DNA of 17,537 bases, from the NCBI GenBank assembly GCA_029555885.1, contig JAKPQT010000252.1, positions 1-17,537 of the forward strand, written 5' to 3'. Both the position numbers and the translations under genes were made by a program. Every line of letters begins with the position of its first letter. Within the stretch, counting starts at the first letter, position 1. The notes under the pieces are model-generated. The model did not search any database, was not told the DNA's origin, and saw only the letters and a program-made list of their open reading frames with translations. This document shows, piece after piece, positions 1,827-17,537 of this stretch. Origin of the DNA: Chloroflexota bacterium (lineage in GTDB: Bacteria > Chloroflexota > Anaerolineae > CG2-30-64-16).

Positions 1827-1855
1827 TTGACGCCAGGCCGGTCTGCCGCTATACT
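1827..1855 (+). promoter_or_regulatory. Sigma70-type promoter of the PqqD/radical SAM cassette
   Basis: TTGACG (1827-1832), a 17-base spacer and TATACT (1850-1855) each match the consensus at five of six positions with optimal spacing. The mRNA would start near 1862, about 37 bases before the TTG start of the first gene, leaving room for its AAAGAGGTGA ribosome site. Confidence 0.65.
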
Positions 1856-1898
1856 GGCCGCGGCAATGTACTGCACGTCCGGCAGAAAGAGGTGACAC

Positions 1899-2183
1899 TT
1901 GGACGGAAGCGGGGATCAGCGCAGGCCCAAACACCATCCGCGCACGGCCGCACGCGTGTTCAGCGGCGAAGCGGTGGTCATCAGCCCTGCGGAGAACATG
2001 GTGCGCATGTTCAATCCGGTCGGTTCGCGCATCTGGGAACTGGCAGACGGCCAACGCACCGTCGAGGAGATTGTGCGGCAATTGACGGAGGAGTATGCCG
2101 TCGAGTTGTCCGCTGCGCGGGCCGAAGTCGGGGAGTTTGTGGATGCGCTGGCCGCCAAGGGGCTTCTGACTTTTGCCGAATGA
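1899..2183 (+). CDS. PqqD-family peptide-binding protein (RiPP recognition element)
   Basis: This 94-residue protein is a stand-alone PqqD domain. Such proteins bind the leader of a RiPP precursor and present it to the partner radical SAM enzyme. The typical pattern is visible: a hydrophobic beta region (VFSGEAVVISPAENMVRMFN), then GSRIWELADGQRTVEEIVRQL, then a C-terminal helix FVDALAAKGLL. The start is TTG at 1899. An in-frame TGA lies two codons upstream at 1893, and AAAGAGGTGA sits about 5 bases before the TTG; the next alternative start, GTG at 1956, would cut into the domain. The first 20 residues are polar and probably disordered. It is the first gene of the cassette, with 77 bases between it and the radical SAM gene. 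PqqD proteins also occur outside RiPP clusters, but the small peptide gene nearby supports the RiPP role. Confidence 0.88.
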   Translation: MDGSGDQRRPKHHPRTAARVFSGEAVVISPAENMVRMFNPVGSRIWELADGQRTVEEIVRQLTEEYAVELSAARAEVGEFVDALAAKGLLTFAE

Positions 2184-2201
2184 TGCGGATTAGTATATAG
2201 T
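2173..2201 (+). promoter_or_regulatory. Possible internal promoter before the radical SAM gene
   Basis: TTGCCG (2173-2178), a 17-base spacer and TATAGT (2196-2201) lie across the end of the PqqD gene. The -35 matches at four of six positions and the -10 at five of six. The gap is AT-richer than its surroundings. It could give extra transcription of the maturase and peptide genes, but chance is not excluded. Confidence 0.25.
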
Positions 2202-2260
2202 GGTGTTGCTTTATTTGCGTGCGTGTTCAGGTCAGCGTGCGAGAAGGGTGTATTGGTGAT

Positions 2261-3478
2261 ATGGCGAACGTTCCGCTTCATCTGAATCTAGGATCCGTTA
2301 CCGTCGATTCAGCGGCGCCGCTGGATCGTGGTTTCCCCGCCTGCGGCGCCGTTACGGAAGCACGCGACCCCTATGAAGCTCTGCTTTCCCGCCTGGGGCA
2401 TGAATACGTGCCCTTTACGGTGCTGTGGGAGCTAACGCACGTTTGCAATCTCAACTGCATCATGTGTTACAATGTGCCCTTGAAGCAGCCTGAGTTGTCA
2501 ACGGCAGAGTGTCATGCCATCCTTGAGCAACTGGCCGAAGCGGGCACGCTGCGGCTGACCCTGACGGGCGGCGAGATTTTGTCCCGCCGTGACTTCTTTG
2601 ACATTGCCGGCCGGGCGCGTGAGCTGGGCTTTGCGCTGGATCTGAAGACCAACGCCACCCTGATTACGCCGGCCATTGCGGATCGGTTGGCTGAACTGGC
2701 GCCGGTGCAGGTGGATGTCAGTCTGTTGGGCGCGACGCCGGAGACCTTCGATGCGGTTTCTGGCGCGCGTCATTCGCTCGAACGGGTCCTGCGGGGGGTC
2801 AAGCTGCTGCAGGAACGCGGCGTGCGGGTCAAACTCAATACATTGCTGCTCGACCTGAACGTGCATGAGCGCATGCAGATGCTTGACCTGGCGCGAAATC
2901 TTGGTGTATACTACGAACAGGTTTTGAAGGTCTCCCCAGCGGATGATGGCAGCAACGTTGCAGGCCTTCACCAGTTGTCGCTGGCACAGATGTCGGATGC
3001 CTTTGTTGCTGACCAGACGCCGTTTACACCTACGCAGCCGGGTCCGGCAGCTCGGACGTGTGGCGTGGGGCTATCGTCCTGTCTCATCAGCCCCTATGGT
3101 GTCGTCTATCCGTGCATCGAGTTGCGCATCCCGGCAGGAGATCTGCGGCGTCAGTCCTTCCGTGAAATCTGGACGACGGCGCCCATCTTGCAGCGGCTGC
3201 GGACCAACCACACCTGGGCCAATCTGCCCGAGTGTCGGGTCTGTCCGCTGAATACCTACTGCGAAGGGCGATGTGCCGGTATCGCCTGGAAGGAACACGG
3301 TGACCTGTACGGCGGTCACCTGACGGCCTGTCAGCAGGCGCAGGCGCGTTATGCGCAGGTTAACCCAGGGCAGCCGATCCCTGAGACGCCCTTGCAGGCG
3401 AAAATGGGTGGGGCGCCAACATCTGTGCCCGCGAGCGATGGGGTATCATTCGCTCAACCGATTCGACTCTTGGACTAG
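2261..3478 (+). CDS. Radical SAM/SPASM peptide maturase
   Basis: This 405-residue enzyme is predicted to modify a peptide using S-adenosylmethionine and Fe-S clusters. The radical SAM motif CNLNCIMCY gives C62, C66 and C69, and LTLTGGE is the SAM-binding GGE motif. The C-terminus is a full SPASM domain: C267-x12-G280-x4-C285, then C325-x2-C328-x5-C334-x3-C338 and C357, enough for two auxiliary 4Fe-4S clusters. Such enzymes make thioether, carbon-carbon or related crosslinks; the bond type cannot be read from sequence. I chose ATG 2261, preceded by GAAGGGTG with a slightly long 10-base spacing, over GTG 2219, which adds 14 residues and has no clear ribosome site. It lies between its PqqD partner and the putative substrate at 3577. 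Confidence 0.93.
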   Translation: MANVPLHLNLGSVTVDSAAPLDRGFPACGAVTEARDPYEALLSRLGHEYVPFTVLWELTHVCNLNCIMCYNVPLKQPELSTAECHAILEQLAEAGTLRLTLTGGEILSRRDFFDIAGRARELGFALDLKTNATLITPAIADRLAELAPVQVDVSLLGATPETFDAVSGARHSLERVLRGVKLLQERGVRVKLNTLLLDLNVHERMQMLDLARNLGVYYEQVLKVSPADDGSNVAGLHQLSLAQMSDAFVADQTPFTPTQPGPAARTCGVGLSSCLISPYGVVYPCIELRIPAGDLRRQSFREIWTTAPILQRLRTNHTWANLPECRVCPLNTYCEGRCAGIAWKEHGDLYGGHLTACQQAQARYAQVNPGQPIPETPLQAKMGGAPTSVPASDGVSFAQPIRLLD

Positions 3479-3564
3479 TGTTGGGTTGCATCCTCGGCCA
3501 TTTGCGCCGGCAAGGCTGCGTCGAGGACTTACTGTGGAGTTTGTTTCGTCTGCATAGCTATAAT

Positions 3565-3570
3565 GGAGGT
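3565..3570 (+). promoter_or_regulatory. Ribosome binding site that sets the peptide start
   Basis: GGAGGT lies 6 bases before ATG 3577, the strongest Shine-Dalgarno match in the cassette. It picks the 64-residue product over a 97-residue reading from GTG 3478, which overlaps the stop of the maturase gene. It fits a substrate peptide made in larger amount than its enzyme. Confidence 0.75.
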
Positions 3571-3576
3571 CACTCA

Positions 3577-3771
3577 ATGGACGCAAATGCGCTGAATGCA
3601 CGGGATGAGATGATATCGGATGTGCGCAAGGCCTGGGAAACACCGCGCATCGTGTTGGAACGATCGCTGGAAGTATCCGCCCAGGGTGGCCCTCCTGGCG
3701 GCGCACCGAACGGCTTTATCGGGCCGTTGAGCACGTCCGGCGGTGCCGGCACGTGCGTCGCACCTTTCTGA
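3577..3771 (+). CDS. Putative RiPP precursor peptide
   Basis: This 64-residue peptide is not one I can assign to a named family. Residues 1-36 are charged and helix-prone and look like a leader. The stretch W20-E-T-P23-R-I25 resembles the aromatic-x-x-Pro-x-aliphatic element that leaders of lasso-type and other PqqD-dependent peptides use to bind the recognition element. The tail from G37 is rich in Gly and Pro: GGPPGGAPNGFIGPLSTSGG and then AGTCVAPF. It has a single cysteine (C60), two aromatics (F47 and C-terminal F64), and Ser/Thr at 52-54 and 59. Two Gly-Gly pairs (37-38 and 41-42) are possible cleavage sites, giving cores of 26 or 22 residues. It starts 98 bases after the maturase and 76 bases before the secreted C25 peptidase. 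The maturation chemistry is inferred from context only. Confidence 0.78.
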   Translation: MDANALNARDEMISDVRKAWETPRIVLERSLEVSAQGGPPGGAPNGFIGPLSTSGGAGTCVAPF

Positions 3772-3792
3772 GCCTTATTGTGCTAGACTACT

Positions 3793-3833
3793 CCAATGTC
3801 ATCGCGACGAGCTTCATTCAAGCGGTACATTGG
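3793..3833 (+). repeat. Inverted repeat between peptide and peptidase genes
   Basis: CCAATGT (3793-3799) and ACATTGG (3827-3833) are perfect 7-bp complements around a 27-base loop. The loop contains a small GCTT/AAGC hairpin (3811-3823). The right arm ends five bases before the GGAGA ribosome site of the peptidase. It could slow read-through, protect the peptide mRNA 3' end, or hide the peptidase ribosome site. There is no U-run after it. Confidence 0.4.
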
Positions 3834-3847
3834 CGACGGAGATCGTA

Positions 3848-6800
3848 ATGCGACAACCCCGGCCCCGTCTTTGGCGCGGTGCAGTGTGGGAGATTCTCGT
3901 AGCCTTTATCCTGGTGGTCAGCATGGCCGCGCCGTCTGGCGCGGCTTTCGCGTCCGCCAGGGACACTGCCACGCCCACAACGCTGCTCCTGCGCACCCCC
4001 GAATATCATCTGTCTGACACTGGTATCACTGTACCTGGTTACGCCGCCGAAACGACGCCTGGATACCCACTCTTGCCGGTCTATGGCACGCTGGTTGCGC
4101 TGCCGCCGACCGGCGATTGGGAGTTGGCCTTCGAGACTCCTGGTGTTCAGCTATTAGAGACGCGCATTGCGGTGCCGGCCGTGCCCGTGCCGGACCTCGA
4201 TGTAAGCGGCGCGGCGAGCTGGCTCACGCTGCCGCCGGAAGAGCGCCCTTCGGCGGTGCCGGTGGTCGACCGGCCCGATCCCGCGGTCTACGGTGTGGAT
4301 GCTTTCCACCCCGCAGCGCCGGTGGTGACCGGTGAGCCCATCTGGCATGGCGAGCAGCGCCTGCTGCCTGTGCGCGTCTACCCGTTCCAATATAACCCGG
4401 TCACGCGGCGGCTGCGCTACTACCCCGAGTTCCGCATCCAGATCACCCCGACCGCGGCCCAGGCCGGAGAGCCGGTTGGCGCGGCAGAGGCCGCCGCACC
4501 AGCAGCCGCACTCGCTCCGGCCGCGACCAACGCCCTGCGCATCCGCACGAGCAGCGAGGGGATGCACCGGCTGACATACGCGGACCTGACCGCTAAGGGA
4601 GTTCCTGCGGGCACGAGCACGGCCAGCTTCGCGATGACCTACCTGGGCCAGCCCATCGATATCCAGGTGCTCGACGCGGACGGGGTGTTCAATAGCGGCG
4701 ACCTGGTCATCTTCTACGCGGAGGCGTACCGCGGCCGCTATATGCGGGACAACGTCTACTTCTTCTCCTACGGCGGCGCACTCTCGGGTGATCGCATAGC
4801 CCAGCGGACAGTCACGCCGACCGGCAGCGAGCCGGTGCGGACGGCTATGACGCGCACGCTGCATATCGAGTTTGACGAGGCCTATTTCGGGGACTATCCC
4901 CTGCCATCGACGGCCGATCATTTCTTCGACAGTCCGACGTTAGCGGTCGATGGCACCACCACGGTCAGCACGCTGAACTACGATCTGGCATTGGTCGATC
5001 CCCTGCCGACCGGGCAGGTGGCCTTCCGCGGCCAGTTCTATGGCGTCACGGAGCAGGCGACTGCGCCTGACCAGTCGGTTCAGGTGCGCCTGAACAGCCA
5101 CATGCTTGGAACGTTCACCTGGGATGGCCGCGTGGGGCATACCCCGCAGGCCACCGGGCCGGCGACCTGGCTCGATGCCACGCCGAATACTTTGACGGTC
5201 GAAGCCGCGCTCGCCCAGTTGCCGGCAGTGACCGGCTATTCGGTATATGTCGACTGGCTGGAGCTGGACTACCCATCGCTGGCGAAGGCCCAGCAGGACC
5301 GGCTGCATATCAAAGGGTTGAACCTTGCACCCACCGATACATCCGTCAGGGTTGACACAACGGGTTTCACCACGGACCAGGTAATGGTCTACGATATCCG
5401 CGACCCGCGACAGCCGGTTGTCCTCGCGACGCCGCAGGCGATCAACACGGGTGCGGGCTATGATGTGCATTTCTGGGATGCGTGGCCCGCTGGCAGCCCG
5501 GCCCCGAGTTACTTCCTGACGAGCCAGGCCGCGCTCCTGGCGCCAACTGCGGTGGAGGTGGCCGATGCGCCGGCCTGGAATACAGCCGCCAACAACTATG
5601 ACTATATCGCCATTGTCCATCGTTCCCTGTGGGATGCCGTCCAGCCGCTGCTGAATTTCCGCACCGCCCAGGGGCTTCGCGTGGCGAAAGTCGATGTGCA
5701 GCACATCTACGACCTGTACAGCGGCGGGCGAATGGACCCAGAGGCGATTCGCGCGTTCCTGACCTATGCCTATTTCAACTGGAATCCGGGCGGCCCGCGA
5801 CCGCACTATGTCGTGCTCGTGGGTGACGGGCACTATGACTTCAAGAACGTTCTCGGTACGCCGATGCTGAACCTGATTCCGCCGTATCTGCTCCATGTGG
5901 ACCCGTGGATCGGGGAGACCGCGGCCGATAATCGGTATGTCAGTGTCAATGGACCGAACGACTACATACCCGATATGGCACTGGGACGAATCCCCGCGCA
6001 GAGTCCGGCGGAACTGACCACGGCAGTCGACAAGATTCTGCGGTATGAGGACGCGACGCGACCCGACTATGCGCCGGATGGTGACTGGCAGAAGATGGTG
6101 AGCTTCGTGGCAGATCAGGCGGACGACCCGGCGGGCGACTTTCAGGCGTTCAGCGAGGATGTGCGCCTCAATTGGCTGCCCGCGTCGTACGATAGCCGCC
6201 ATGTCTACTGGGAAACGGACTATCAAGTCGCCAATCCTGATATGGTGAATGCCATTAAGGCCGCGCTTGGGGACAGCATCATGCTCCAATGGTTCGGCCA
6301 TGCCTCGCGGTTCCGGTGGGGCAGCACGCAAGTCTTCAGCACCTTCTCGGTCAAGAGCATGTCTCCCACAGCGCAGTGGCCTTTGACGGCAGACTATTCA
6401 TGCTGGACGGGCTACTTCATCAATCTCTACAACGCCTCGGGCGACTACCGGTCGCTCAGCGAGGTCATGCTCCTGACCGCCAATCAGGGTTCGGCGGCGA
6501 CGATTGGGCCGAGCGGCCTGCACGTCGGAGGCGCGCTGCTGACGCTGAATCAGGGGCTCGTCAAGGCCATTTTCCAGGACGAAGTCCTGCCTGTGGGCGA
6601 TGCGCTCAATGCTGCCAAGCAACACTTCCTGGCGAATAGCAATAGCTGGCACGATGTTGTTGACACGACCGTGCTGTTCGGTGACCCGGCCATGCGGCTG
6701 CGGCTGCCGGTCGATCCGAAAGCAGCCCCGAATCCGCCCTACATCGGCATTTCCCGTGCAGGCAGCGCGGTCGATCTGTCCTGGCAGCATCCCGACCGGA

Positions 6801-7129
6801 CGCTGACCCAGTACCAGGTCTGGCGCAGCGAGGCCCCGTACTTCGAGCCGGCCCAGGGCCAGGGCACGCAGATCGATAGCTATAGTTACCTGCAATCGGT
6901 CTATGGCGAAGGTGCGCCGTTCAGCTACGTGGATGATGGATCGTGCGGCTACTTTGTGGCCGGTGGTCAACCGCTACTGCCGTGTGCGCCGCAAGCGCCT
7001 ACCACGACGGTTATCGGTGATCCGGCTCACAACTACTTCTGGGTGGTGCGCGGGGGGAATAGCTCGAACGAATTCGCGGATTCGAACCACGTGGGGGTGT
7101 TCAACTACGCGCTGATAAAGGGCGACTAA
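3848..7129 (+). CDS. Secreted C25 (gingipain-like) cysteine peptidase
   Basis: This 1093-residue protein has a signal peptide (RPRLWR, a hydrophobic core to about residue 28, then an AAFA/SA cleavage-like site). A propeptide-like region with repeated Pro/Val-rich beta strands covers about 45-230. The C25 catalytic region spans about 580-950: YVVLVGDGHYDF near 653, H818 in FGHAS, and C852 in DYSCWTGYF, matching the His and Cys dyad of gingipains. GDPAMRLRLP closes that domain, and a fibronectin-III-like tail (about 963-1093) holds YQVWRSEAPYF. No C-terminal anchor or type IX sorting domain is seen. ATG 3848 is preceded by GGAGA at 5 bases, and upstream extension lacks a signal peptide. Being last in the cassette, it may cut the leader after export or act with the mature peptide; its substrate is unknown. 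Confidence 0.9.
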   Translation: MRQPRPRLWRGAVWEILVAFILVVSMAAPSGAAFASARDTATPTTLLLRTPEYHLSDTGITVPGYAAETTPGYPLLPVYGTLVALPPTGDWELAFETPGVQLLETRIAVPAVPVPDLDVSGAASWLTLPPEERPSAVPVVDRPDPAVYGVDAFHPAAPVVTGEPIWHGEQRLLPVRVYPFQYNPVTRRLRYYPEFRIQITPTAAQAGEPVGAAEAAAPAAALAPAATNALRIRTSSEGMHRLTYADLTAKGVPAGTSTASFAMTYLGQPIDIQVLDADGVFNSGDLVIFYAEAYRGRYMRDNVYFFSYGGALSGDRIAQRTVTPTGSEPVRTAMTRTLHIEFDEAYFGDYPLPSTADHFFDSPTLAVDGTTTVSTLNYDLALVDPLPTGQVAFRGQFYGVTEQATAPDQSVQVRLNSHMLGTFTWDGRVGHTPQATGPATWLDATPNTLTVEAALAQLPAVTGYSVYVDWLELDYPSLAKAQQDRLHIKGLNLAPTDTSVRVDTTGFTTDQVMVYDIRDPRQPVVLATPQAINTGAGYDVHFWDAWPAGSPAPSYFLTSQAALLAPTAVEVADAPAWNTAANNYDYIAIVHRSLWDAVQPLLNFRTAQGLRVAKVDVQHIYDLYSGGRMDPEAIRAFLTYAYFNWNPGGPRPHYVVLVGDGHYDFKNVLGTPMLNLIPPYLLHVDPWIGETAADNRYVSVNGPNDYIPDMALGRIPAQSPAELTTAVDKILRYEDATRPDYAPDGDWQKMVSFVADQADDPAGDFQAFSEDVRLNWLPASYDSRHVYWETDYQVANPDMVNAIKAALGDSIMLQWFGHASRFRWGSTQVFSTFSVKSMSPTAQWPLTADYSCWTGYFINLYNASGDYRSLSEVMLLTANQGSAATIGPSGLHVGGALLTLNQGLVKAIFQDEVLPVGDALNAAKQHFLANSNSWHDVVDTTVLFGDPAMRLRLPVDPKAAPNPPYIGISRAGSAVDLSWQHPDRTLTQYQVWRSEAPYFEPAQGQGTQIDSYSYLQSVYGEGAPFSYVDDGSCGYFVAGGQPLLPCAPQAPTTTVIGDPAHNYFWVVRGGNSSNEFADSNHVGVFNYALIKGD

Positions 7130-7152
7130 CGGGGACTCTCCCGATAACCCAA

Positions 7153-7186
7153 CAGGGCCACGAACTCAAGCGAGTTCGCGGCCCTG
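7153..7186. terminator. Hairpin between convergent genes
   Basis: CAGGGCC-A-CGAACTC pairs with GAGTTCG-C-GGCCCTG around an AAGC loop: a 15-position stem with a single A/C mismatch. It lies 23 bases after the C25 peptidase stop and 27 bases beyond the stop of the leftward ATPase, so it can end transcription from both sides. Neither side has a clear U-run. Confidence 0.75.
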
Positions 7187-7213: not shown

Positions 7214-9820
7214 CTAAGCCGCCTTTTGGTAACCGGCGAGCGTCTCGCTGCGCTGGCGGCCGCGGGCATCCTCATAGCTGACCTCCCACGAGGGCGCCCA
7301 GGCCAGCGCGACGCTGTGTACTTTCACGTCGGTCTTGCGCGGCTTGACCTCGATTTCCTCGATGTCGTTGGCTGCGTTGCTCCATTGCTCGGTCAGGGCC
7401 TCGGCCTCCTGCTCCATCTCGGCCTTCAGCGCCTCGAAGTCGGCCTTCAGCCGTTCGATTTCCGCTTCCGACTCCGCGATATCGGCCTTGGCCGAGCTGG
7501 TCATCCGGCGTTTGGTCGCTGCGCGCGTCAGCCCGCCCAAGCTTCTGCTCTTGCGCCCGAGGACGCCGAGCGCACCGATGACGCTTGATAGGCCGGACAG
7601 CACTTCCTCGCCTATGCGGCCTTTGTATTCCGCCTTGTCTTCTTCCAGCTCGCGCTCCTCGCGCGTCAGCCGTTCCTCCAGGCGTTGCAGCTTAACTTCG
7701 TATTTGTCGCGCAGAGTGTCCACGGCCTTGTCGCGTGCCGCGCGGGCGGCCTCCTGGCAGCGGACGCTGAACTCGCGCTCCGATTCGTCTGCCTGCGCAT
7801 ACAGTTTGAGGGTGCGATTGTAGGGCAGCTTGAACACCTCGCTGCGGTACAGATAATCGGCGAAGCCGGATTGCAGGCTGGTGTAGGTGCGGGGTGAACT
7901 GGCGCCCTCCGGCAGGTCCGCCGCGAAGAACGCGCCGTCAGCGGGTGCGCTGTCCAGGTGGCGCGGGCTGGCATCGAGCGGCTCGGCATCGCGCCAGGAG
8001 ACTAGCTTCAGGTCGCGCGGCTCCGGCAGCAGGAAGGCGAGGTCTCGTTCCTCATCCAGCCCGATCTTGCGGTCGGTGAAGCGCACCGTGGCAAAGCCGA
8101 CCAGTGCGGGACGGTAGATGAGCTGTTGGTGTGCGACCGTGACCTGCGCACCGACCAGTTCAATTACACTTCTCTCAGCCTCGCGCTCCGAGACGGCTAC
8201 GGGCAGGTAGCGTGGCTCGATGCCGGGCGGCAGCATCGGCGGCTGCTGGCTCAGGCCGGCGGGGGTTGCCGGCGCTGCTGCGGCGCGGGCAGGGACTGCT
8301 CCCGCAGTCACGCTGACCGATTGTGCGTCGAGCCGTTGTACTTCGGGCTGCGCGCCGATGACCCGCACCGGGCCGGCTGCCGGCCGCACGGGCGCTGGTT
8401 TGGCGGCCTTACGCTCGGCCATCAGCGAGCGCACCTGTTGCCGCGTCAGCGGTCCGCGCAGATAGCTCATAGCCCAGCGCGTCATGAAAACGACCGGCCC
8501 GTCCCCGTGGACGTTGTGGAGCAGGAAGACGCGGCTATCCAGCGCGGTAATCAGCCGGTCCAGTTCGCTCCGGTTCATGCTGGCGCCCGACTCTGACAGC
8601 GCGCCCTCCAGCCCGTCGAGCAGCCGCTGCTTGTCGCGTTCGGCCTGGAGTTTGCCGATGAACCATGTGCCGGTATTGGTCAGCCCCTTGTAATCCAGGT
8701 CGACCGGGTTTTGCGTCGTGAGCGTGACGCCCAGGCCGAATGCGCGCGCCTGCTTGAGCAGGGTGAGCATCGGGCGCTTGCTGGGTGGGTTGGCCGTGGG
8801 CGGGAAGTAGCCGAATACCTCGTCCATGTAGAGCAGGGCGCGCAGGCTCGTCGTGCCCGGCTGGGCGCGCATCCAACTGATGATGTTTTCGAGCAGGATG
8901 GTGACGAAGAACATGCGCTCCGCGTCATTCAAATGCGCGATGTAGAAGATGGTGTGGCGGGGCTTGCCCGACGGCGTGTGCAACATCGCAGCAACATCGA
9001 GCGCTTCGCCCTGCAGCCAGGCCCCGAAGGAGGGCGAAGCGACGATGTTGTTGAGCGCCATCGCCAGGCCGAAGCGGTCCTTCTCCGGGTAGAATGCGTC
9101 GACATCCAGCACGCCCACCTGGCGGAACGGCGGCTTCTGCACGGCCTGGATGAGCTTCGCCAGGTCCAGGTCCTGCCCGGCGCGCCAGGCGCTTTCGACG
9201 ATCGTCGAGAGCAGGATGTGCTCACGGCTACGCACCGGGTCCGCGTCGATGCCGACCAGCCCCAGCAGCGCGGAGACGGTCCCCTGGATGCGCTCGCGCA
9301 GCGTCTCGGTCTCGTCGTCCCAGTTGAGGTCAGGCGCCTGGAAGCTGCTCAGGATGCTGACAGGCAGCCCGGCATCCGAGCCGGGGGTGTAGATTGAGAA
9401 GTCCGCGGATTCCTTCAGCGCCCGGATTCGTTCGGGGCCTTCCTCCCAGCTTGCCAGCCCTTCGCGCCACAACTTGGCCTGCGCAGCCGCGAACTCCTCA
9501 GGGGTCTGGCCCTTGCGCCGCGCGTCGTCCAGGTTGATCCAGGGCAGGAAGTCCTCCGGGCGCAGCTCCGGGAAGGTCAGCAACAGATTGGTGATGTCGC
9601 CTTTGGGGTCGATGATGATGGCGGGCACGCCGTCGAGCGCCGCCTCTTCCAGCAGGTCGATGCACAGGCCGGTCTTGCCGCTGCCGGTCATGCCGACGCA
9701 GACGGCATGGGTGGTCAGGTCGCGCGCGTCGTAGTTGATGGCGGCGTCGCCTAGCTTCCGCGTCGCCAGATCGTACGTCTTGCCCAGATAAAAACTGCCC
9801 AGTTTTTCGATGATCGGCAT
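7214..9820 (-). CDS. HerA/FtsK-type P-loop ATPase with coiled coils
   Basis: This 868-residue ATPase has Walker A GMTGSGKT at residues 43-50, a DPKGD motif at 71-75 and Walker B LLYMDE with D333-E334. A conserved TLTTQNPVDLD stretch follows, as in HerA-like (DUF87-type) ATPases that move DNA or protein. After a Pro/Ala-rich linker near residue 500, the C-terminal half has two charged coiled coils (about 690-735 and 770-815) separated by a Gly-rich hydrophobic stretch. A final beta-rich piece follows. I chose ATG 9820, with GAGGAG about 8 bases before it, over GTG 9835, which falls inside that site. No nuclease such as NurA, and no secretion genes, are next to it, so its process is unknown. 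It is convergent with the C25 peptidase. Confidence 0.82.
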   Translation of the reverse strand: MPIIEKLGSFYLGKTYDLATRKLGDAAINYDARDLTTHAVCVGMTGSGKTGLCIDLLEEAALDGVPAIIIDPKGDITNLLLTFPELRPEDFLPWINLDDARRKGQTPEEFAAAQAKLWREGLASWEEGPERIRALKESADFSIYTPGSDAGLPVSILSSFQAPDLNWDDETETLRERIQGTVSALLGLVGIDADPVRSREHILLSTIVESAWRAGQDLDLAKLIQAVQKPPFRQVGVLDVDAFYPEKDRFGLAMALNNIVASPSFGAWLQGEALDVAAMLHTPSGKPRHTIFYIAHLNDAERMFFVTILLENIISWMRAQPGTTSLRALLYMDEVFGYFPPTANPPSKRPMLTLLKQARAFGLGVTLTTQNPVDLDYKGLTNTGTWFIGKLQAERDKQRLLDGLEGALSESGASMNRSELDRLITALDSRVFLLHNVHGDGPVVFMTRWAMSYLRGPLTRQQVRSLMAERKAAKPAPVRPAAGPVRVIGAQPEVQRLDAQSVSVTAGAVPARAAAAPATPAGLSQQPPMLPPGIEPRYLPVAVSEREAERSVIELVGAQVTVAHQQLIYRPALVGFATVRFTDRKIGLDEERDLAFLLPEPRDLKLVSWRDAEPLDASPRHLDSAPADGAFFAADLPEGASSPRTYTSLQSGFADYLYRSEVFKLPYNRTLKLYAQADESEREFSVRCQEAARAARDKAVDTLRDKYEVKLQRLEERLTREERELEEDKAEYKGRIGEEVLSGLSSVIGALGVLGRKSRSLGGLTRAATKRRMTSSAKADIAESEAEIERLKADFEALKAEMEQEAEALTEQWSNAANDIEEIEVKPRKTDVKVHSVALAWAPSWEVSYEDARGRQRSETLAGYQKAA

Positions 9821-9881
9821 GGCCTTACTCCTCACTCGAAGCAGTGTTTTCGCGACTGATGCGTGATGCTCTGGTGTAGCC

Positions 9882-13700: not shown

Positions 13701-15149
13701 TTAGTATGCCCTTGCGAAGATGGCGACCTGGTCGGTGCGCTGGCCCGTGTAGAAGCAGGCACCTTCGCCTTCCGGCTTCTCGAACGGGAAGCAGCGGATG
13801 GTGGCCTTCGTCTCTTCCTTGATGCGATCCTCGTCCTCGCCCGTGCCGGCCCAGTGGACGCGGATGAATCCGCCCTGGGCTTCGAGCACCTGCTTGAACT
13901 CGTCGTAGGTTTTGGCCGTGCGTGTGTTAGCGTCGCGGTACTCCGTCGCGCGGCGCAGCAGGTTGGCCTGGATGGTCGTCAGCATCTCCTGGACGACAGC
14001 CGTGAGGCCGTCCACCGGCACACCGAACGTCTTGCCCTCCTTGCCCGGCACGTCGCGCCGCGCGAGGACGACGGCATTTTGCTCCACGTCGCGCGGGCCG
14101 ATTTCGATGCGCAGCGGCACCCCGCGCATCTCCCAGTCGTTGAACTTGAAGCCCGCGCTGAGCTCGTCCCGGTCGTCCAGCTTGACGCGGATGCCCGCCT
14201 CCTTGAGCAGGGCAAACACCTGCTGTGCCAGCCCGCGCACGGCTGCCTGCTCCGCATCCTTGCGCCAAATGGGGACGATGACCACCTGCAGCGGGGCGAG
14301 CCGCGGCGGCAGGACGAGGCCCTGGTCGTCGCCGTGCGCCATAATAATCGCGCCGACCATGCGCGTGCTGAGGCCCCAACTGGTTGTCCAGGCGTGATCC
14401 AGCTCGTTGTTCTGGTTGAGGAAAGTGATGTCGAAGGCCTTCGCGAAGTTCTGGCCGAGGAAGTGGCTCGTCCCCGATTGCAGCGCCCAGCCGTTGCCCA
14501 TCATGGCCTCGATGGTGTAGCTGTCCACCGCGCCGGCGAATTTCTCGCGCTGGCTCTTCTTGCCCTGGATGACGGGAATCGCGGCCTCGTTGATGGCGAA
14601 GTCGGCATAGACGCCCAACATGCGGATGGTCTCTTCGAGCGCTTCCTGTTCGGTGGCGTGGGCCGTGTGACCTTCCTGCCACAGGAATTCGGTCGTGCGC
14701 AGGAACAGCCGCGTGCGCAGCTCCCAGCGTACCACGTTGCCCCACTGATTGATGAGCACGGGCAGGTCGCGGTAGGAGCGAATCCACTGGCTGTACATAT
14801 GGCCGATGATCGTCTCCGATGTCGGGCGCACCACCAGCGGCTCATCCAGCTCCTTACCGCCGCCGACCGTGACGACGGCCAGCTCCGGCGCAAAGCCCTG
14901 GACGTGCTCCGCCTCCTTTTGCAGGAAGCTCATCGGGATGAAGAGGGGGAAGTACGCGTTGACGTGGCCGGTGTCTTTGAAGCGCCGGTCAAGCGCGGCC
15001 TGGATGTTCTCCCAGAGGGTGTAGCCGTAGGGCCGGATAACCATGCAGCCCTTGACCGGCGAGTAATCGGCCAGCTCGGCCTTCTGCACGACATCGGTAT
15101 ACCAGCGCGCGTAGTCTTCGCTGCGTGGGGTCACGCCTTTTTCTGCCAT
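13701..15149 (-). CDS. proS: Prolyl-tRNA synthetase, archaeal/eukaryal type
   Basis: A 482-residue class II aminoacyl-tRNA synthetase that charges tRNA-Pro. Motifs seen include VIRPYGYTLWENIQ near the N-terminus, LVVRPTSET, motif 2 RWELRTRLFLRTTEFLWQEGH, the Pro-pocket GTSHFLGQNF and GDDQGLVLPP. An anticodon-binding domain (about 290-390) precedes the C-terminal extension ending IFARAY, so it is the short form without the YbaK editing insert. In the C-terminal domain, where relatives bind zinc with four Cys, the pattern reads WAGTGEDED and ACFYTGQ, so most ligands are gone. ATG 15149 has AGGAG about 11 bases upstream; the longer reading from 15350 runs antisense-frame through the next gene and is rejected. 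Confidence 0.95.
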   Translation of the reverse strand: MAEKGVTPRSEDYARWYTDVVQKAELADYSPVKGCMVIRPYGYTLWENIQAALDRRFKDTGHVNAYFPLFIPMSFLQKEAEHVQGFAPELAVVTVGGGKELDEPLVVRPTSETIIGHMYSQWIRSYRDLPVLINQWGNVVRWELRTRLFLRTTEFLWQEGHTAHATEQEALEETIRMLGVYADFAINEAAIPVIQGKKSQREKFAGAVDSYTIEAMMGNGWALQSGTSHFLGQNFAKAFDITFLNQNNELDHAWTTSWGLSTRMVGAIIMAHGDDQGLVLPPRLAPLQVVIVPIWRKDAEQAAVRGLAQQVFALLKEAGIRVKLDDRDELSAGFKFNDWEMRGVPLRIEIGPRDVEQNAVVLARRDVPGKEGKTFGVPVDGLTAVVQEMLTTIQANLLRRATEYRDANTRTAKTYDEFKQVLEAQGGFIRVHWAGTGEDEDRIKEETKATIRCFPFEKPEGEGACFYTGQRTDQVAIFARAY

Positions 15150-15178
15150 GTGTATCTTACTCCTACCGAATGGTGAGG

Positions 15179-15703
15179 TTAGTCTAACAATCTCACTGCC
15201 TCTGCGGGCGTCTCTGCGATCTCTGTCAATGCCGCAATGGACGATCCCAGGTCCGTATGTTCCAGCAGCGTCGCGACGACCGGCCGCCACTGCGCGCCGA
15301 GCAGGACGAGTGCCCGGCCCTCCAGGCTGCGCACCTGGAGCAAGCTCCATACGAGCGTCAGCTCGGACAGCGTGCCGATGCCGCCGCGCAGCGCCACAAA
15401 CCCGTCAGCCCGCTCGATCATCAGGGCCATCCGCTCGATGAGCGTGGCGGCCTTGACTTCCTCGGTCACCCACGGGTTGCAGGGGGCCGGGTCGAAGAGG
15501 GCGCACGTCACGCCGACGACGTGGCCGCCGGCCTCCGCCGCGCCCTGGCTGACTGCCCCCATGCTGCCCGCGTAGCCACCCGATAGCACGGTGTGGCCCG
15601 CGCTCGCAAGCAACCGGCCCAGCTCGTACGCCTCCGCGTAGCAGGGGCTATCGACCCGACAGCGTGAACTGCCGAAAACCGCAATGGTTCGTCCCGCATG
15701 CAT
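15179..15703 (-). CDS. LOG-family (TIGR00725-like) protein
   Basis: A 174-residue Rossmann-like protein related to LOG/lysine-decarboxylase-like phosphoribohydrolases. IAVFGSSR is at the N-terminus, SGGYAGSMGA (41-50) is the phosphate-binding loop, and GGIGTLSEL (107-115) matches the GGxGTxxE signature. The residue before the signature is Arg (ALRGG) where the family commonly has Pro. Classic LOG enzymes cleave N6-modified AMP to free base; the substrate of this subgroup is not established. ATG 15703 is preceded by GAGGA about 7 bases upstream, and only 29 bases separate it from proS, so the two are probably one transcript. Confidence 0.85.
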   Translation of the reverse strand: MHAGRTIAVFGSSRCRVDSPCYAEAYELGRLLASAGHTVLSGGYAGSMGAVSQGAAEAGGHVVGVTCALFDPAPCNPWVTEEVKAATLIERMALMIERADGFVALRGGIGTLSELTLVWSLLQVRSLEGRALVLLGAQWRPVVATLLEHTDLGSSIAALTEIAETPAEAVRLLD

Positions 15704-16735: not shown

Positions 16736-16743
16736 AGGAGGTG
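16736..16743 (+). promoter_or_regulatory. Ribosome binding site that sets the NusG-like start
   Basis: AGGAGGTG is a near-perfect Shine-Dalgarno sequence nine bases before GTG 16753. The other in-frame GTG (16741) lies inside this site and so cannot be the start. Confidence 0.8.
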
Positions 16744-16752
16744 AGGCAAGCA

Positions 16753-17307
16753 GTGTCGGAAGCCTGGTATGCGATCTATACCAAACCCAACGCGGAGGCG
16801 CAGGTGGCGCGCACGCTGATCGAGCGCGGCTTCCATACGTTCCTGCCCATGCTGCCCCCGCGCGGGGAGGGCCGGGCGCGGCCGGTGTTTCCGACCTATC
16901 TGTTCGTCCGCTGTGACCTGTCGCAGGTCATCATCGACAATTTGCAATGGATCCCCGGGTTGCAGTACATTCTCAGCTTCGAGGGCCGGCCCGCGGTCGT
17001 GCCGGACGAAGCCATCCAGCTGATCGAGACCGCAGTACGCGAAATCGAGGCCGCGGGCGGGCTAACGCTGCATCGCTTCAAGCCGGGCGACCGGGTCGTC
17101 ATCGACGAAGGCCCGCTGGCCGGACTGCGCGGCGTCTTCGAAGGGCCCGTCAAGCCGGCGGAGCGCGTGCGCATCCTCATTCGTTTCCTCGGTGAGACCA
17201 ACCGGGCGGAGGTGCCCGTCGAGGTGCTGCGCAAGGCCAGCGATGATGAGCTGCTGCCCCGCCGCCGCGGCACGCGCGGCCGCGGGCGGCGGATTCGCTA
17301 TGACTGA
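16753..17307 (+). CDS. NusG/RfaH-like transcription elongation factor paralogue
   Basis: A 184-residue protein with a NusG N-terminal domain (about 3-95: AWYAIYTKPNAEAQVARTL, and PVFPTYLFVRCDL as in RfaH-like members) and a KOW domain (RFKPGDRVVIDEGPLAGL and beyond). It ends in an Arg-rich tail (RRRGTRGRGRRIR). NusG proteins bind RNA polymerase and either promote or suppress pausing and termination. The lack of secE and ribosomal-protein neighbours (rplK, rplA) marks it as a specialised paralogue rather than the housekeeping NusG. The start is GTG 16753. Only 15 bases separate it from the MFS gene, so it may control that operon; the target is not visible here. Confidence 0.88.
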   Translation: MSEAWYAIYTKPNAEAQVARTLIERGFHTFLPMLPPRGEGRARPVFPTYLFVRCDLSQVIIDNLQWIPGLQYILSFEGRPAVVPDEAIQLIETAVREIEAAGGLTLHRFKPGDRVVIDEGPLAGLRGVFEGPVKPAERVRILIRFLGETNRAEVPVEVLRKASDDELLPRRRGTRGRGRRIRYD

Positions 17308-17322
17308 TAGAGGACGGGCCTG

Positions 17323-17537
17323 ATGCCCGGCTGGCGGCGCACGCTCTATACGGTCTGGCTCACGCAGTTCATCGCGGTGGCGGGCTTCTCGTTCATCATG
17401 CCCTTCATCCCTTACTACATCCAGGAACTCGGTGTGACGGACGTCCGGCAGGCCGGGCTGTGGGCGGGGGTGGTGACGTCCGCGCAGGCGATCAGCATGA
17501 CGCTGATGGCGCCCGTCTGGGGCGCGCTGTCGGACCG
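17323..17537 (+). CDS. MFS transporter, N-terminal part (cut by window edge)
   Basis: Seventy-one codons are visible. The first transmembrane helix is LYTVWLTQFIAVAGFSFIMP, followed by an extracytoplasmic loop (YYIQELGVTDVRQ) and helix 2 (WAGVVTSAQAISMTLMAPVW). The start of MFS motif A, GALSDR, comes at the edge. This fits a drug/metabolite exporter with 12 or 14 helices. ATG 17323 has GAGGACGG about 7 bases upstream and follows the NusG-like gene closely, suggesting one transcript. The substrate cannot be told. Confidence 0.88.
   Translation, partial: MPGWRRTLYTVWLTQFIAVAGFSFIMPFIPYYIQELGVTDVRQAGLWAGVVTSAQAISMTLMAPVWGALSD

Follow-up and report, generated by a model that had tools for sequence, protein, structure and literature searches.

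A candidate family of modified peptides in Chloroflexota that unites a radical SAM/SPASM maturase with a secreted C25 peptidase

A 17,537-nucleotide stretch of DNA from a Chloroflexota bacterium (contig JAKPQT010000252.1; hereafter, the window) contains, on the plus strand between positions 1827 and 7186, a promoter-like site, genes for a PqqD-like protein, a radical SAM/SPASM enzyme, a 64-residue peptide and a C25 peptidase, and then a strong hairpin. This combination of a peptide, a leader-binding protein, a radical enzyme and a secreted gingipain-like peptidase points to a modified-peptide system that has not been recognized. Upon comparing the cassette with its relatives, we determined that the SPASM gene is optional and tracks a cysteine in the peptide, and that the peptide is inherited along with a clade of secreted C25 peptidases dedicated to it. 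We consider it probable, with moderate confidence, that the cassette represents a new family of ribosomally synthesized and post-translationally modified peptides (RiPPs) of Chloroflexota, in which the SPASM enzyme modifies the cysteine and the C25 peptidase trims or attaches the product; we infer both the SPASM chemistry and the cutting of the peptide by C25.

An original prediction, made from the letters of the sequence alone, had proposed these four genes, and open reading frames and Pfam matches place all four as it had described them. The features of the cassette are as follows.

1827..1855, plus strand: promoter-like site, TTGACG-17-TATACT (scan, 10/12 positions; both hexamers kept in the related locus L063)
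1899..2183, plus strand: PqqD-like leader-binding protein, 94 residues, TTG start (PF05402, 65.8 bits, 4.4e-18, cut-off 23.4; Shine-Dalgarno-like stretch and TTG kept in L063)
2261..3478, plus strand: radical SAM/SPASM maturase, 405 residues (PF04055, 84.7 bits; PF13186, 40.7 bits)
3577..3681, plus strand: precursor leader (residues 1-35) with W20-x2-P23-x-I25, E28-R29-x-L31 and V33-x-A35 (alignments; predicted leader/core border)
3682..3771, plus strand: precursor core (Q36-F64) with GPL motif and a single Cys60, codon 3754-3756 (alignments; same predicted border)
3848..7129, plus strand: secreted C25 peptidase, 1093 residues, with hydrophobic N-terminal segment and propeptide-like region (PF01364, 241.8 bits, 1.8e-71; PF08126, Propeptide_C25, 30.4 bits)
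6299-6301 and 6401-6403, plus strand: codons of the C25 dyad, His818 and Cys852 (alignment to PorU and gingipain)
7153..7186, plus strand: strong hairpin 3' of the C25 gene, no T-run (fold -33.8 kcal/mol, z -5.3)

The precursor peptide and its link to the SPASM gene

The small open reading frame is a true gene. A single-sequence search of 5.8 billion proteins returned 29 relatives of the 64-residue peptide (E 7e-35 to 2e-8), which places it beyond chance, and a 32-row profile found 102 relatives at E 0.01 or better; source names among the protein relatives include Anaerolineae and Caldilineales. The peptide has no match in Pfam, NCBIfam or PHROGs. Comparison of the window with L063 indicates purifying selection on the peptide (nonsynonymous rate dN 0.228, synonymous rate dS 0.780), weaker than that on the SPASM enzyme (0.055/0.578) or on PqqD (0.066/0.628).

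In an alignment of 29 rows, comprising the window and 28 of the 29 database relatives (P0008, the second half of which is unlike the others, was omitted), the residues M1, W20, P23, I25, E28, R29, L31, A35 to P40, G46, G49 to L51, G58 and C60 are invariant. As these rows were found by shared words, the alignment overstates the conservation of the peptide; in a wider 32-row alignment, which omits L036, L046 and L054, M1, P23, E28 and L31 are still invariant, while W20, R29, A35, G49 and P50 are kept in at least 90% of the rows. Conservation of the leader and of C60 had been proposed as a check on the original prediction, and both are conserved in the aligned relatives; likewise, homologous loci keep a conserved small open reading frame between maturase and peptidase, the absence of which had been named as the observation that would speak against a RiPP cassette.

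Within one Chloroflexota class, the peptide was found in at least 20 of 396 genomes drawn, at no fewer than 30 places, while a phylum-wide draw of 400 genomes added little (at least three with a match, one being G001); both counts are lower bounds, at most 15 first-pass candidates having been scored per genome. Order-level searches gave no further genome with a strong (>50 bits) match. A genome-contig scan gave a sole close match, at 90% identity, in a Chloroflexota metagenome-assembled genome (MAG; locus L001), the other three matches being at 25 to 29%. The 30 places correspond to 29 fetched loci, which together with the window make up the 30 loci that we annotated with custom-built profiles. 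At a threshold of 60 bits, PqqD is present in 24 of these, C25 in 21, an HPr-kinase-like (HprK-like) protein in 19, SPASM in 16, NTP_transf_5 and a Wzc-like autokinase in nine each, and an S26-type peptidase in eight. One genome, G181, holds six peptide copies (at L037, L039, L045, L046 and L053), mostly away from PqqD and SPASM; the copy in L053 has an in-frame stop and was omitted from the list of peptides.

The unique peptides number 123, of which 70 contain a cysteine and 53 do not. The leader ends alike in both types (Ala35 in 120/123, Val/Ala33 in 114/123, Gln36 in 103/123). In the Cys-type peptides that could be anchored, the cysteine lies nine residues past the leucine of GPL in 43/69 and is preceded two positions ahead by a glycine in 58/69. 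Two or more Ser/Thr residues follow GPL or GPF in 66/69 Cys-type peptides and in 42/45 anchored Cys-less peptides; this stretch being common to both types, only the Cys tail is extra.

The presence of a SPASM gene tracks this tail. At all 16 SPASM-bearing loci, the peptide beside the SPASM gene has a cysteine near its C-terminus, and at all nine loci having PqqD but no SPASM (L036, L050, L056 to L062) the peptide is Cys-less (Fisher test at the locus level, 4.9e-7); two of these nine, L036 and L062, carry the sister leader type described below. Cys peptides with neither PqqD nor SPASM in the fetched stretch occur at five loci (L035, L037, L045, L046, L053), all of them in the genomes G001 and G181, which have a SPASM gene elsewhere. 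At the genome level, a SPASM homolog (51 to 90% identity) is present in 15/20 genomes, each of which has a Cys peptide, and absent from five, none of which has one (6.4e-5); one of these five, G177, has just a 34% homolog. Three genomes (G109, G129, G148) contain one cassette of each kind. MAGs can miss genes, yet in the Cys-less cassettes PqqD directly precedes the peptide, leaving no room for a SPASM gene. Such cassettes retain the same leader, PqqD, C25 and mostly the HprK-like protein, together with a Cys-less core; the constant part of the cassette is therefore PqqD, peptide and C25, to which the radical step is added in some cases.

The SPASM enzyme itself exceeds the Pfam cut-offs and has the CX3CX2C motif (C62, C66, C69) and seven SPASM cysteines (C267, C285, C325, C328, C334, C338, C357), all ten of which are invariant in 40 aligned sequences, as expected from the original prediction, which had counted a full set. 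At least 412 relatives were found at E 1e-20 among 8000 scored candidates; at three distant ones (L002 to L004) no PqqD, peptide or C25 was found with these profiles. When compared with solved structures, SuiB, 5wgg, SkfB, ChlB and anSME tie, and the fold therefore does not tell the reaction. In sum, genes for a leader-binding protein and for a maturase accompany that of a ribosomal precursor with conserved leader and core, as in RiPP pathways.

A sister type of precursor, with the leader PYE.PAVVYEA.LEVRAGSP and a short, different core, was seen in L102-L112 (e.g., L108:8311-8394 and L112:7746-7838) and also in L036, L062 and L113. These precursors are Cys-less and lack SPASM in the fetched loci; in L036, L062, L106, L108 and L112 they adjoin PqqD and HprK-like genes.

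A C25 clade inherited with the peptide

That a C25 peptidase is the fourth member of the cassette, as first proposed for the window, holds across its relatives: a C25 gene lies at most 3.5 kb downstream of the peptide, on the same strand, in 21 of the 30 loci, L062 included. Three of the loci in which none was scored (L050, L060, L063) reach a contig edge, the beginning of a C25-like protein being visible in L050 and, on visual inspection, in L063.

Of 41 C25 sequences placed in a tree, the 20 that stand beside peptides of the window leader type form one clade (support 100); the other 21 are the two of L062 and a selection of 19 from further loci. Because the 20 peptide-adjacent C25s constitute a fully supported clade apart from these 21, the peptidase is a dedicated one. 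Peptide-bearing genomes contain between 2 and 14 C25 matches. The C25s near sister-type peptides in L062, L102 and L113 lie in one five-row clade (support 98), so that a separate C25 line may accompany the sister type.

The window protein belongs to peptidase family C25 (241.8 bits versus a cut-off of 23, with the His-Cys dyad aligned), and all 38 rows that extend far enough carry the dyad, three further rows being truncated. Its nearest solved sequence is PorU (1.4e-10), followed by gingipain R2, with which it has the C25 domain, a propeptide-like region and the dyad in common. However, it differs from these proteins in being encoded with RiPP genes and in forming its own clade among the C25s compared, and it scores below the NCBIfam cut-off of the type IX sortase PorU (NF033707, 185.2 bits versus 420).

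By eye, the secreted proteins encoded next to the peptide or C25 have a terminal Leu-Pro motif (LWLPLL, for example) in L037, L040, L044, L045, L048, L049, L051 and L058, and a hydrophobic stretch with an Arg tail in L041, L052 and L055; the C25s of L052, L059 and L061 contain a dockerin-like repeat. Leu-Pro endings were counted in 12/66 secreted-like and 14/208 other open reading frames, in a biased set of loci and with 2 of the 12 being another ending. These features are possible sorting signals. We dropped the idea that C25 and its partners share a C-terminal sorting domain, because the iterated profile grew from 26 to 79 matches and became a generic fn3-like module. L114, L115 and L120 contain tandem C25 genes, and close to these, on the opposite strand, lie a PqqD match and a weak HprK-like one; no peptide was recognized at these three loci, and the genomes also hold the cassette.

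Proposed pathway, alternatives and known systems

In the pathway that we propose, PqqD would hold the precursor via the W-x2-P-x-I...E-R-x-L leader while the SPASM enzyme modifies the single cysteine near the C-terminus, a target suggested by the pattern of presence and absence; judged by the enzyme class, the product would most likely be a thioether between this cysteine and a nearby core residue. The leader would then be cut between (V/A)-x-A and Q, probably by the S26-type peptidase encoded in the clusters of several relatives, which in the genome of the window would have to act from elsewhere. Outside the membrane, C25 would trim the released peptide or join it to a surface partner.

The S26-type peptidase, a small protein, was seen in L042 (5934-6383, minus strand), with relatives in L038, L039, L049, L051, L055, L056 and L062. 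It has SMxPTL-like and HRL motifs and scores below the cut-offs of the models for archaeal signal peptidase I and nickel-superoxide dismutase maturation protease. Enzymes of the signal-peptidase type follow a (-3,-1) pattern to which (V/A)-x-A conforms. As the leader ends in (V/A)-x-A before Q, it suits this protein, which is a candidate leader peptidase. With regard to the HprK-like protein, L048 contains only weak, split matches, whereas in all 19 matches above 200 bits, a set that includes L106, L108 and L112, Walker A is kept. A sulfotransferase gene (L057:4364-5272, minus strand) lies between the HprK-like gene and the PqqD gene of a Cys-less cassette.

A number of results weigh against our reading. 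The Fisher tests treat related loci as independent, and each of the two traits, Cys and SPASM, undergoes only three changes on the C25 tree, so that few independent events underlie the association; these amount to two or three well-supported independent pairs, two of which agree when L039 is labeled by its SPASM-side peptide, and the approximately unbiased (AU) test does not reject one clade uniting the Cys-less rows (p 0.064). In L039, a second peptide, which is Cys-less, adjoins the C25 gene at a distance of about 3.5 kb from the SPASM gene. The tree labels this locus by the SPASM-side peptide, and in the alternative labeling, scored separately, four changes of Cys are counted and one pair out of three disagrees. 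Furthermore, four loci (L036, L045, L046, L053) have no C25 match, leaving their peptides without an adjacent C25, as are those of L038 and L055, where another secreted protein comes next. An exporter for the peptide is not known, and in neither the window nor L063 was an S26-type, HprK-like or nucleotidyltransferase gene seen next to the cassette; such partners therefore act from elsewhere or are dispensable.

The small number of changes and the AU result would also fit an association due to inheritance only, in which two old cassette lineages have persisted and SPASM acts elsewhere, for instance on the shared GPL or the Ser/Thr stretch that both types have after it. The peptide types differ before GPL as well (mostly GF(L/I) versus a Pro and F). 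On the other hand, the best tree puts the Cys-less rows in three places within the SPASM-bearing clade, the spacing between GPL and Cys is tight, and GPL occurs also in Cys-less peptides without SPASM; we regard inheritance only as unlikely. We assign about the same low standing to a sorting system, in which C25 would be a PorU-like transpeptidase and the modified peptide, instead of diffusing away as a product, would serve as a handle that becomes attached to surface proteins or exopolysaccharide. The relationship to PorU, the Wzc-like autokinase in 9/30 loci, the glycosyltransferases and sugar transferase in L057 and L060, and the large secreted proteins that adjoin C25 or the peptide in several relatives (ten such partners were scanned with Pfam) are consistent with sorting. 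However, the PorU model score is far under its cut-off, the shared C-terminal domain proved generic, neither an acceptor nor a common sorting signal was established, and no partner protein of this kind lies downstream in the window. A more elaborate version, in which the peptide is tailored by the radical SAM enzyme on Cys or by the HprK-like kinase on Ser/Thr to become a covalent surface handle that a PorU-like C25 joins to secreted proteins or exopolysaccharide, seems to us rather improbable. Finally, the peptide might regulate C25, its modified form inhibiting or activating the peptidase encoded with it, akin to a propeptide acting in trans, which we find the most doubtful of these ideas. 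The fact that the peptide is strictly linked to a single C25 clade and that both would be exported, and a Ser/Thr- and Gly/Pro-rich core with no obvious toxin features could be so explained, but C25 already has a propeptide-like region (PF08126), and the orphan peptides of L045, L046 and L053, like those of L038 and L055, have no C25 to regulate beside them.

If the pathway with a modified cysteine and a dedicated C25 is correct, the natural presence and absence of SPASM, together with the single cysteine, makes the target residue directly testable. Moreover, cassettes that include the radical step and cassettes that lack it would be served by one leader, and a surface-linked peptide system would become available for study in a phylum that is mostly uncultured.

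The cassette resembles several known systems in part. SynChlorMet likewise combines HprK-like, PqqD-like and radical SAM/SPASM proteins in one cassette, but the matches to its NCBIfam models are weak and below cut-off (ScmC at most 37.2 versus 125; ScmD 36.1 versus 100; ScmE 98.7 and ScmF 75.9 versus 400), the likeness being judged at the level of these models. As in the sactipeptide and ranthipeptide pathways (SkfB, StsB, the 5wgg maturase), there is a SPASM enzyme with three plus seven invariant cysteines and a Cys-bearing core; unlike them, the cassette has a stand-alone PqqD, one cysteine only and a C25, no C39 exporter was seen, the thioether is a proposal from enzyme class, and the StsB model NF045574 gives 128.2 bits versus a cut-off of 625. 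PQQ and mycofactocin cassettes also contain a PqqD-like protein, a SPASM enzyme and a small peptide, and PqqE is the nearest solved sequence to our SPASM enzyme (5e-15). However, scores again lie below cut-off (PqqE 102.5 versus 381, mycofactocin 130.7 versus 265, PqqD 37.9 versus 46), and by NCBIfam the peptide is unrelated to those of either system.

Lasso pathways with a kinase and a nucleotidyltransferase (paeninodin, pseudomycoidin) share the PqqD-like binder, and HprK-like and NTP_transf_5 genes occur in relatives of the cassette. In contrast to those pathways, the cassette has SPASM and C25, and no Asn-synthetase-like cyclase or transglutaminase-like protease was found among the scanned genes of the window and relatives, which cover part of each locus. 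In those lasso pathways, PadeK and PsmK phosphorylate a C-terminal Ser and PsmN adds a hexose (PMC9266682). To our knowledge, no RiPP system has been described that includes a secreted C25 peptidase dedicated to it. A review of RiPP leader proteases, examined by word search, describes C39, C1A and C96 cysteine proteases and gave no match to C25, gingipain, signal peptidase or S26 (PMC10885120); a word search of a paper on Bacteroidales RiPPs likewise turned up neither C25 nor gingipain (PMC10352776). Searches of the open-access literature for C25 or gingipain in connection with radical SAM enzymes, RiPPs, Chloroflexi or Anaerolineae brought up no such system among the titles and abstract openings, one isolated 'C25' being a residue number, though an account in a subscription journal or preprint is possible. 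Thus, the parts are of known kinds, and their combination was not found in the open-access literature at that depth.

Signals and neighbors of the cassette

The promoter, called good in the original prediction, stands in that L063 keeps both hexamers, along with the Shine-Dalgarno-like stretch and the TTG codon at which PqqD starts, while the surrounding sequence has diverged; by count it is weak, four matches of this type having been observed in the region versus 1.8 (sd 1.4) expected. Similarly, the long hairpin is real, but its role as a terminator is unproven: it has no T-run and was not picked up by the terminator scan. As first noted for this DNA, no exporter or immunity gene was recognized among the 14 window proteins scanned with Pfam, a set that lies apart from the open reading frames at 13701-15350 and 17323-17535.

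The cassette is flanked on the opposite strand by RNase J upstream and an 873-residue protein downstream. The latter (7214-9835, minus strand), which is convergent with C25, has a P-loop-like start and no Pfam match at 1e-5. Further along, the window holds sugar genes (GT2, RmlD) and, at 16741-17307 on the plus strand, a gene for a short NusG-like protein (PF02357) that is possibly a specialized antiterminator of the RfaH type.

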